Both the position numbers and the translations under genes were made by a program. Under the pieces are notes generated by a model. The model was not told where the DNA came from. It did not search any database and saw nothing but the letters and a program-made list of their open reading frames with translations. A DNA stretch of 64,000 nucleotides. Origin: Anaerolineae bacterium (GTDB lineage: Bacteria; Chloroflexota; Anaerolineae; 4572-78; J111). The DNA is taken from the NCBI GenBank assembly GCA_022071955.1, contig JAJVIM010000001.1, forward strand, positions 62,001-126,000, in the 5' to 3' direction. Numbering within the stretch: position 1 is the first letter of the stretch; each line of letters starts with the position of its first letter. Below, one piece after another: positions 6,629 to 10,133 of the stretch.

Positions 6629-7498
6629 ATGAGCGACGTAAAAATTGGTGTTATCGGCGGCAGCGGCCTGTACAAAATGGACGGCCTGACCAACGTCGAA
6701 GAAATTTCTATTTCAACCCCGTTTGGCGACCCGTCTGACAATTTTATTGTGGGCACGCTGGAGGGGCAGCGGGTGGCTTTTTTGCCGCGCCACGGCCGCA
6801 AACACTCCATCAGCCCTACCGAGCTGAACAGCCGGGCCAACATCTGGGGCATGAAAAAGCTGGGCGTCAAATACATTATCGCCGCCAATGCCTGTGGCAG
6901 CCTGCGCGAAGATTACAGACCGCGCGACATCGTTATCCCGGACCAGTTGTTTGACCGCACCCGCTCCCGCGAGCTGACCTATTACCAGGGCGGCGTGGTT
7001 GTGCATATGAGCGTCGCCGAGCCGTTTGAGCCGGCCCTCTCCCAAATTTTGTACGACAGCGTCAAAGAAACCGGCGGCACGGTTCACATGGGCGGCAACT
7101 TCATCATCATCGAAGGGCCGCGCTTCAGCACCATCGGCGAAAGCCGGGTGTTCCGCCGCTGGGGCTGCGACATCATCGGCATGACTACCATCCCCGAAGC
7201 GTTTCTGGCCCGCGAGGCCGAAATTGCCTACGCTACAATGGCCCACATTACCGATTACGACGTGTGGCACCAATCTGAGGAGCCGGTCACGGTGGATGCC
7301 GTCATTGCCAATTTGCAGGCCAATGTCGATGTGGCCAAGCAGGCAATTCGCAACGCGGTCAAAAAACTGGCCGGCGCGCCCAACATGCCCAGCCACAGCG
7401 CCCTGTCCACGGCTATCATCAGCAGCCGTCACCGCGCCGATGTGCCCGCCGACACCTGGCACAAACTGGAGCTGTTTATTGCCAAGTATTACCAGTAA
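6629..7498 (+). CDS. mtnP: S-methyl-5'-thioadenosine phosphorylase
   Basis: 289 residues, full length for MTA phosphorylase, which splits methylthioadenosine with phosphate into adenine and 5-methylthioribose 1-phosphate (methionine salvage and polyamine-byproduct clearance). Diagnostic motifs: IGVIGGSGLY at the N-terminus, TPFGDPSDNF, FLPRHGRKHSISPTELNSR (phosphate and sugar site), AANACGSLRE, and EGPRFSTIGESR followed by IIGMTTIPEAFLAREAE. The ATG has GGGAGA upstream, directly after a TCCTGA leader repeat. The 3' end overlaps the likely TTG start of the following SEDS-fusion gene by 20 bases, so the two may be translationally coupled. The final ~25 residues (HRADVPADTWHKLELFIAKYYQ) match a complete enzyme, so the overlap is not a truncation. 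Confidence 0.95.
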   Translation: MSDVKIGVIGGSGLYKMDGLTNVEEISISTPFGDPSDNFIVGTLEGQRVAFLPRHGRKHSISPTELNSRANIWGMKKLGVKYIIAANACGSLREDYRPRDIVIPDQLFDRTRSRELTYYQGGVVVHMSVAEPFEPALSQILYDSVKETGGTVHMGGNFIIIEGPRFSTIGESRVFRRWGCDIIGMTTIPEAFLAREAEIAYATMAHITDYDVWHQSEEPVTVDAVIANLQANVDVAKQAIRNAVKKLAGAPNMPSHSALSTAIISSRHRADVPADTWHKLELFIAKYYQ

Positions 7499-10133
7499 AC
7501 TTCAAACCGATATCCGGCCAGCCCGGGCGGGCGGGGCGTTAGCCCTGACTGTGCTGTACGGGCTGGCTTTTCTGTTTGTGGGGCTGGCGTTGCTGCAACT
7601 GGCACTGGCTGCCGGCGACAGCATCCAGCCGGCAACATTTTTGCCGCTGGCGGTGCTGCTGGGTTGCGTTGGCGGGTCGCTGGCTTTGCTGCGACGTCGC
7701 TTTGGCCCTTCCCCCGGCGATCCCCTGCTGCTGGCGGTTACCTTCTTTTTGAGCGGTTTTGGACTGGTGCTGATTGCCCGGCTCGCGCCCGTGTTTGTTA
7801 CCCGCCAGCTTTTTTGGCTGGTGCTGGCCACGATGCTGCTGTTGGCCGTAACCCTCGTCCCCAAAAATCTTGACTGGCTGCGCCGCTACAAATACACCTG
7901 GCTCTTTGCCGGCCTGGCTTTGCTGGCCAGCACGCTGATTTTTGGTGTCAATCCCAGTGGCTACGGCGCGCGCTTGTGGTTGTCGCTGGGCGGCCTCTAT
8001 TTTCAGCCCTCGGAGTTGCTCAAGCTACTGCTGGTGGTTTTTTTGGCCGGCTATCTGGCCGACCGCCGCCATGCGCTGGTCAACGCGCGGGCCTATCTGG
8101 GCCGATTGCCCATTCCCCACCCGGCCTATCTGGGGCCGATGCTGTTGATGTGGGGGTTCAGCATGGTGCTGCTGGTCTGGCAGCGCGATCTGGGCGCGGC
8201 GCTCCTCTTTTTTGGTACATTTTTGGGGATGCTTTACGCCGCCACCGGCCAGCTACGCTACATTTGGGCCGGCACGTTGCTGCTGATTGTGGCCGCGCTG
8301 ACCGGCTACTGGTTGTTTGATGTGGTCCGGCTGCGAGTGGATGCTTTTTTGGACCCGTGGCTCGACCCGGCCGGCCGCTCGTTTCAGATTGTGCAATCGC
8401 TGCTGGCTTTTGCCAGCGGCGGGGTGCTGGGGCAGGGGCTGGGGCAGGGCCTGCCCACCGCCATCCCCGTTGTCCACACCGATTTTGTTTTTGCCGCCAT
8501 CGGTGAGGAGTACGGCCTGCTGGGTGCGCTGGGCGTGCTGATCTGTTTTGGGCTGCTGGTGGGCCGCGCCTTTTTTATTGCCATCCGCGCCCGCACTGAG
8601 TTTGAGCAGCTATTGGCGGCCGGCATTGGCACGCTGCTGGGGCTGCAAACTATTGTTATTGCCGCCGGTACGCTCAAATTGATGCCGCTGACCGGCGTTA
8701 CCCTGCCATTTGTCAGTTACGGCGGCAGCAGTTTGTTAGTCAGCTTTTTTATGATCGGCCTGCTCTTTTTTATTTCGACCGGCCCGCCGGCGCCCCGCTA
8801 TCAGCCTGCGCCGGCTATTTATCATTTGCCGCTGGCTCGCGGCATCTTCTTTGGGCTGCTGGTGACGGCCGGCGGGCTGGTGCTGTGGCAGGTCCTGCTG
8901 TCGCCGCTGCTGGTCTCCCGGCGAGACAACCCCCGGCTGGTGGTCGCCCAGCAAAAAATCGACCGCGGCCGGCTGTTGTCGCGCAGCGGCATCCCCATCG
9001 CCGAAACCATTATTGCCGCCGATGGGTTGGCGCTGCGGCGTTACCCCTACCCGCGCCTGTCGTCGGTGACGGGCTATTACAGTATTCGCTACGGCGTGGG
9101 TGGCACCGAGGCCGCGTTTGATCCCATTTTGCGCGGCGTGGTCGGCCTCACTGCCGAGGATCGATTCTGGAACGATCTGCTGCACCGGCCGCTGGTGGGC
9201 GATGACGTACAATTGACCATCGATTTGCCGGCGCAGGCCGCCGCCGATGTGGCGTTGGGGGATCGGGAGGGGGCGGTGGTGCTGCTCGATCTGGACAGCG
9301 GCGCGGTGCTGGCGATGGCCAGCCATCCCACGTTTGACCCCAACACGCTCGATGAAGCCTGGGAGACCCTGCGCACCGATGCCCGGGCGCCGCTGCTTAA
9401 CCGGGCCACCCAGGGGCTGTTTCCCGTGGGCGATCTGGCGCGGTTGGTGGCGCTCATCGGCCTGCACGAGGCCGGCGCGGCGGTGCCGTCCAACCCGGCC
9501 GGCGCGCCGCTAGCAGACTTGACCCGGCCGCTGGGGCCAACCGGCTATCGGGCTACGGCTCACCAGTTGGGGCTGGCCCGGCCGGTGCCCGGTTTTCAGT
9601 CTGCGGCGGGGCTGCTGCCCGATTTCCCGCCGGCCGGCAAAGAAACTGCCCGCGATTTGGCGATAACGCCGCTGCATGTGGCCCGCCTGCTGGCCGGGCT
9701 GGATCGCGCCGGCCGCCTGCCCAACCCCACCCTGCTGCTCAACAGCCATGCCGACTGGCAGCCGGTGATTCAGCCTGCAACAGCTCTGGCCGGGCGCGCG
9801 CTGCTCACGCAAAAAGAGGGTCAGATCATCGGCCTGAGCGGGCTGGCCACGCCCACCGATACCGGCCAGGCTTATTTGAGCTGGTTTGCCGGGTTGGGGC
9901 CGACCAACGTTTCGCCGCAACCCGCGGTGGCGTCTTCGGCGGCGATGGGGGACGGCGGCCTGATTTTTGACCCCGGCCAGATTCCCGCAGCGACGCCGGC
10001 CGCTGCCAGTCCGGCCAGCAATCCCATTCCGGCGCGTTATGCCGTAGTAGTGGTGGTAACCAGCGCCACCGCCGATGAGTCGCTGGCGTATCGAATTGCC
10101 CGGCCGGTGCTCAATGCGGTGATGAATCGATAG
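7479..10133 (+). CDS. SEDS (FtsW/RodA) glycosyltransferase fused to a degenerate transpeptidase-like domain
   Basis: About 884 residues from a TTG at 7479. That TTG has GGAG at 7468-7471, and no SEDS-like sequence lies upstream of it, although the open frame extends into mtnP. Residues 10 to about 440 form a polytopic SEDS peptidoglycan polymerase with PSELLKLLL, the QRDLGAA motif and VVHTDFVFAAIGEEYG, whose Asp335 matches the essential Asp of E. coli RodA (D262). After a further membrane helix (about 450-480) comes an extracytoplasmic class B PBP-like domain with LTIDLPAQAAAD and GAVVLLDLDSGAVLAMASHPTFDPN. Where active enzymes have the Ser-x-x-Lys after NRATQG.YPPG, this protein has D652-L-A-R655. 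The KTGTA box is LSGLA (786-790), so acylation chemistry looks lost. It probably polymerises glycan strands with a built-in pseudo-partner that regulates or scaffolds it. Confidence 0.88.
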   Translation: MPSITSKLQTDIRPARAGGALALTVLYGLAFLFVGLALLQLALAAGDSIQPATFLPLAVLLGCVGGSLALLRRRFGPSPGDPLLLAVTFFLSGFGLVLIARLAPVFVTRQLFWLVLATMLLLAVTLVPKNLDWLRRYKYTWLFAGLALLASTLIFGVNPSGYGARLWLSLGGLYFQPSELLKLLLVVFLAGYLADRRHALVNARAYLGRLPIPHPAYLGPMLLMWGFSMVLLVWQRDLGAALLFFGTFLGMLYAATGQLRYIWAGTLLLIVAALTGYWLFDVVRLRVDAFLDPWLDPAGRSFQIVQSLLAFASGGVLGQGLGQGLPTAIPVVHTDFVFAAIGEEYGLLGALGVLICFGLLVGRAFFIAIRARTEFEQLLAAGIGTLLGLQTIVIAAGTLKLMPLTGVTLPFVSYGGSSLLVSFFMIGLLFFISTGPPAPRYQPAPAIYHLPLARGIFFGLLVTAGGLVLWQVLLSPLLVSRRDNPRLVVAQQKIDRGRLLSRSGIPIAETIIAADGLALRRYPYPRLSSVTGYYSIRYGVGGTEAAFDPILRGVVGLTAEDRFWNDLLHRPLVGDDVQLTIDLPAQAAADVALGDREGAVVLLDLDSGAVLAMASHPTFDPNTLDEAWETLRTDARAPLLNRATQGLFPVGDLARLVALIGLHEAGAAVPSNPAGAPLADLTRPLGPTGYRATAHQLGLARPVPGFQSAAGLLPDFPPAGKETARDLAITPLHVARLLAGLDRAGRLPNPTLLLNSHADWQPVIQPATALAGRALLTQKEGQIIGLSGLATPTDTGQAYLSWFAGLGPTNVSPQPAVASSAAMGDGGLIFDPGQIPAATPAAASPASNPIPARYAVVVVVTSATADESLAYRIARPVLNAVMNR

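Follow-up and report, generated by a model that had tools for sequence, protein, structure and literature searches.

A RodA/FtsW-type SEDS protein fused, in Anaerolineae, to a PbpA-type PBP half that lacks the transpeptidase motifs

The need of a SEDS protein for its class B PBP (bPBP), whether for chemistry or for activation, has so far been studied with drugs and point mutants. Engineered RodA-PBP2 fusions polymerise while transpeptidation is blocked by mecillinam, and changes in PBP2 activate RodA (PMC6207328); MreC, acting at the pedestal, has been proposed to promote an opened structure of PBP2 that activates RodA (PMC10257715). A catalytically dead Bacillus subtilis PBP 2B supports division, the chemistry being supplied by PBP 3, a relative of Staphylococcus aureus PBP2A (PMC5656894). 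Natural SEDS-bPBP fusions are mentioned in PMC7614612, so that the fusion as such is already known. No description of a natural, conserved pseudo-bPBP partner was found in the literature searched, which excludes most subscription journals.

Here we describe such a protein, encoded in a 64,000 nt stretch of an Anaerolineae bacterium (GCA_022071955.1, contig JAJVIM010000001.1, positions 62,001 to 126,000 of the forward strand), called hereafter the window, to which all coordinates refer. As in the natural and engineered SEDS-bPBP fusions (FtsW-FtsI, RodA-PBP2), a single chain holds the SEDS part at the N-terminus, a cytoplasmic linker, and the PBP at the C-terminus; unlike the engineered constructs, whose transpeptidase motifs are intact, it has lost these motifs. 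It would also resemble B. subtilis PBP 2B S309A, where a dead class B PBP stays structural and a PBP2A-like PBP crosslinks (PMC5656894), but that is a laboratory mutation in an unfused protein, whereas the present case is natural and ancient.

Another close system is the RodA-PbpA pair encoded in the FhaA-FhaB-PP2C-RodA-PbpA-PknB cluster of Actinobacteria, Clostridia and other Chloroflexota, in which a SEDS gene likewise stands beside a PbpA-type PBP gene. The order FhaA-FhaB-PP2C-SEDS-PbpA-PknB was found in many active loci, those whose PBP keeps SxxK. Of the loci in which the PBP has lost it, called hereafter pseudo loci, a part have FhaA and FhaB upstream as in this cluster (34 of 51 fused, 3 of 12 split loci), and M. 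tuberculosis PbpA is the best structural match of the window protein. Pseudo loci differ by the loss of the motifs, by a methylthioadenosine phosphorylase (MTAP) gene inserted upstream (38 of 51 fused, 6 of 12 split loci), by frequent fusion, and by the absence of PknB and PP2C, found in 0 of 63 pseudo loci versus 9 and 8, respectively, of 16 active loci (in loci of about 10 kb or less; a kinase may lie farther away). Fused relatives mostly have the order FhaA-FhaB-MTAP-SEDS-PBP. At the window locus itself MTAP is present and no FHA gene adjoins the fusion, the upstream neighbours being MTAP and a peptidase-like ORF. We know of no link between MTAP and SEDS functions.

Layout and active site of the fusion

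The ORF at 7479-10133 (+) encodes an 884 aa product in which a RodA/FtsW-type SEDS half is followed in frame by a PbpA-type class B PBP half (Table 1). The first-pass annotation, made from the sequence alone, was correct in its ORF, frame and coordinates, as in describing a complete SEDS half with the outer-loop Asp335. PF01098 matched residues 105-434 with 248.8 bits, for a gathering score of 26.4, and Asp335 aligns with RodA Asp262, whose catalytic role has been described (PMC10449877). The NCBIfam ftsW and rodA models both scored below their cut-offs, so that neither equivalog name applies. In the PBP half, PBP_dimer_2 (PF21922) matched weakly and PF00905 over the first 41 of its 299 positions only. 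The start codon is uncertain: the TTG at 7479 sits 20 bases inside the MTAP gene, which ends at 7498.

Table 1. Features of the fusion gene and its upstream neighbour, in window coordinates
Feature	Position	Strand	Evidence
MTAP (S-methyl-5'-thioadenosine phosphorylase)-like gene, directly upstream, overlaps TTG start	6629..7498	+	ORF
SEDS (FtsW/RodA/SpoVE) half, residues 1-434, predicted TM helix bundle	7479..8780	+	PF01098 E 1e-73; AlphaFold2 helices; Foldseek to FtsW 8bh1, TM-score 0.84 on target
Asp335, SEDS catalytic Asp (E. coli RodA Asp262)	8481..8483	+	aligned to RodA HTDFVF; invariant in 163/163 SEDS rows
TM helix 446-473, PBP-half membrane anchor after short linker	8814..8897	+	AlphaFold2 helix
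PBP pedestal / PbpA dimerisation-type domain, residues 478-595	8910..9263	+	weak PF21922 match, 496-565; as well conserved in pseudo members as in active ones
Transpeptidase-fold domain without catalytic motifs, residues 596-884	9264..10130	+	Foldseek to M. tuberculosis PbpA, TM-score 0.66-0.72 on target; no SxxK/SxN/KTG
PLLNRATQG, residues 638-646, conserved, just before lost SxxK	9390..9416	+	P638, L639, N641, R642, A643, Q645, G646 invariant in 52 fusions
D652-L-A-R655, replaces Ser-x-x-Lys	9432..9443	+	phmmer alignments to PbpA structures; motif scan; relatives
LSGLA, residues 786-790, replaces Lys-Thr-Gly	9834..9848	+	aligned to KTGTG of active fusion L033

A motif scan over residues 471-884 of the fusion returned neither SxxK nor SxN nor K(T/S)G. 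In phmmer alignments to the solved PbpA structures 3un7, 4mnr and 4jbf, D652 occupies the position of the nucleophilic Ser, and R655 that of the Lys; aligning the protein with the active fusion L033 places LSGLA on KTGTG and reveals that the SxN segment is deleted. Both replacements lie where the first-pass annotation had put them, with no SxxK elsewhere in the domain, and the sequencing error at 9420-9445 that it had feared might hide the motif is excluded: the DNA reads cleanly over 9400-9460, and DLAR is kept in six of the seven other fusions of the window's own family, the seventh having DVSR. Since SxxK, SxN and KTG are all missing, we file the PBP half as a PbpA homologue and not as a transpeptidase.

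Structure prediction, which had been proposed as a check, still gave a transpeptidase fold. The AlphaFold2 model of the fusion (52 sequences; mean pLDDT 90, pTM 0.84) contains the SEDS TM bundle, the TM helix, the pedestal and the transpeptidase fold, the last three being the features of a PbpA-type class B PBP. The best PDB matches by Foldseek were the PbpA proteins of M. tuberculosis and Atopobium (TM-score 0.66-0.72 on target) and FtsW; a search of a viral structure library returned no match. In active PBPs, SxxK starts its helix, and in the model helix 651-665 begins at the D652 motif. A far homologue of a shorter type (L088, 807 aa) was predicted with a pLDDT of 88.8 and also matches PbpA. 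The transpeptidase fold is predicted to have been retained despite the loss of the motifs.

Relatives and the order of loss and fusion

Relatives were sought in 301 genomes of Chloroflexota and 396 of the class, and also by a scan of named genomes and in fetched regions, which together yielded 174 distinct PBP parts. Among 96 fused PBP halves, 94 lack SxxK and two have it (L033, and L141 from a Dehalococcoidia MAG), and among unfused PBPs 37 lack it and 41 have it (other Chloroflexota, Actinobacteria, Sporomusa, Pelotomaculum); as sampling followed similarity to the window protein, these counts do not represent class frequencies. The 37 unfused pseudo-PBPs adjoin their SEDS gene. The loss of SxxK in a fusion, which the first-pass annotation had suggested looking for among Chloroflexota homologues, is clade-wide and goes beyond the window protein alone. 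None of 129 pseudo-PBPs, a set that leaves out two isolated losses, has S..K at the place of the motif. Two types of loss were found: a short one, with the SxN segment deleted (window protein and many others), and a long one, in which GCP or ACP stands in for SxN and frequently HxG for KTG.

A tree of 163 SEDS rows was built by a quick method, with SH-aLRT support only. On this tree the active or pseudo state needs three changes, which we read as one basal to an Anaerolineae group of 122 rows, one in L012 (another class) and one in L157, whose sister L158 is active. The fused or split state needs about ten. A single clade of fused pseudo members, and with it a single origin of the fusion, was rejected (p-AU 1e-39 with all 163 rows, 4e-5 with a set reduced to 40 rows). 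In the window's family SEDS and PBP are fused, whereas in f83 and f84, the outgroups closest to it, they form split pseudo pairs; together with the changes on the tree, this indicates that loss preceded fusion here. Catalysis was lost first and essentially once, and fusions came later and repeatedly; the loss of the motifs is ancient and common to a large Anaerolineae clade.

Fusion as the cause of the loss is ruled out by the 37 split pseudo-PBPs and the two active fusions, and by the order of events on the tree. One part of the first-pass reading, a natural single-chain SEDS/PBP complex with a pseudoenzyme as its PBP half, stands as regards the missing motifs, the predicted fold and the low dN/dS (below), but the death of the PBP is not due to the fusion, and fusions as such had already been mentioned (PMC7614612). 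That dead PBPs were fused to their SEDS proteins more than once points to an obligate physical partnership, and this order of events, with the loss ahead of the several fusions, is evidence that something other than crosslinking keeps SEDS and bPBP together.

Three isolated cases were also observed. In L157 (1-4501, G305), low-complexity, GELE-like sequence takes the place of the active-site region, KTG being intact, and L158 (G361), of the same genus, is an active PbpA; L157 has either lost the region very recently or been misassembled. L012 (G011), outside the window's class, combines fusion with a loss of SxxK (PLAQ) that seems to be independent. L159 (G580) has a SEDS gene of the window's group, but no PBP ORF was found within 2.6 kb downstream of it; here the PBP half may have been lost naturally.

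Selection, cell context and proposed function

We consider it probable that the fusion is an active SEDS polymerase with a built-in, dead PbpA-type activator or scaffold, a role already suggested in the first-pass annotation, crosslinking being left to another PBP acting in trans. To judge from its conserved residues, the SEDS half would polymerise peptidoglycan. By analogy with the systems described above, the dead PBP half would be its structural and allosteric subunit, the TM helix and pedestal holding the SEDS half in a polymerising state and presenting the complex to regulators. A different transpeptidase would crosslink the new glycan, the most plausible candidates being class B PBPs of the MecA_N type and class A PBPs.

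Asp335 is invariant in all SEDS rows, and most of the SEDS core residues tested are invariant in 124 of 124 pseudo rows, the rest nearly so. In close pairs, dN/dS was about 0.03-0.17 for the SEDS part, 0.03-0.25 for the pedestal and N-lobe, and 0.05-0.31 for the remaining transpeptidase domain, synonymous sites being saturated in several pairs. These ratios support purifying selection on the pseudo-PBP half, even if part of the transpeptidase domain may be drifting, since its C-terminal part evolves faster (dN/dS up to 0.3). Mean identity in pseudo versus active members was 0.43 versus 0.38 in the pedestal, 0.53 versus 0.51 in the N-lobe, 0.27 versus 0.62 in the SxxK helix and 0.27 versus 0.38 in the rest of the transpeptidase domain; as the active set is taxonomically broader, it is the contrast within each set that counts. 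On these alignments, the pedestal is conserved while the active site drifts.

It is unlikely that the PBP half is a functionless, decaying remnant, tolerated since another PBP does the work. Large deletions and the poor conservation of the C-terminal half of the transpeptidase domain would suit such decay, but the pedestal and N-lobe are conserved across pseudo members, dN/dS is low, a full fold is confidently predicted in two far members, separate pseudo-PBP ORFs stay open in many genera, and re-fusion was repeated.

A new catalytic or binding role acquired in the old cleft (new nucleophile, hydrolase, binding of glycan or stem peptide) is improbable as well. The near invariance of PLLNRATQG before the motif and the retention of a cleft-forming fold are in its favour. 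However, pseudo members have T, A, D, S, G, L, N, M and others at the Ser position, and Q, E, R, L and others at the Lys position, so that no candidate nucleophile is conserved at the motif, and Ser615, invariant in the 52-row alignment, belongs to an N-lobe stretch common to active members.

Genomes of the class that have such a protein mostly carry it as a third SEDS, in addition to FtsW and a canonical RodA. It is not the only non-FtsW SEDS accompanying an Mre system, relatives carrying a separate RodA and MreC, and the idea that it is the cell's main RodA had to be abandoned, as most relatives with the fusion have both other proteins. The system was not seen in half of the class and is therefore accessory. 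This dispensability, and the presence of FtsW and canonical RodA, could also mean that the SEDS half is itself inactive or mainly a scaffold, and that the whole fusion is a regulatory adaptor for canonical RodA, FtsW or class A PBPs; this is very unlikely in view of the invariance or near invariance of Asp335 and the tested core residues in pseudo rows, which a pseudo-polymerase would not need. Finally, the masking of a catalytic motif by a sequencing or assembly artefact is practically out of the question, for although the source genomes are mostly metagenome assemblies, nothing else was found to support it, and the relatives already refute it, the loss being common to 131 distinct sequences, which come from many different genera and assemblies, and DLAR being conserved in the window's family.

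Returning to the activator or scaffold reading, its extension to the clade seems to us evenly balanced between true and false: that a whole Anaerolineae clade has a dedicated SEDS synthase in which the bPBP, after a single ancient loss of catalysis, has been nothing but an activator or scaffold, crosslinking being done by a separate MecA_N-type or class A PBP. This would be a natural polymerase-only machine, and a cell-wall synthase whose own PBP should not bind beta-lactams. As evolution would have split chemistry from activation and kept them apart across many genera, conserved surfaces on the dead PBP would mark what activation needs, and the old loss, common to a large clade, offers a natural test of the partner's role apart from chemistry. 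The single-chain proteins offer themselves for structural work.

No MreC, true MreB or canonical RodA was found in the assembly of the window genome. This is probably an assembly gap, since among the other family members MreC occurs in 11 of 11 and a canonical-length second SEDS match in at least eight; real loss of the Mre system was rejected on the same counts. Among genomes with a third SEDS, picked by hand irrespective of the motif state of its PBP, MecA_N PBPs were commoner than in the others (16 of 18 versus 19 of 42 genomes, Fisher p 0.0017, uncorrected for shared ancestry). The window genome itself encodes FtsI, two MecA_N-type PBP2 relatives and three class A PBPs with intact SxxK and KTG, as well as three YkuD proteins.
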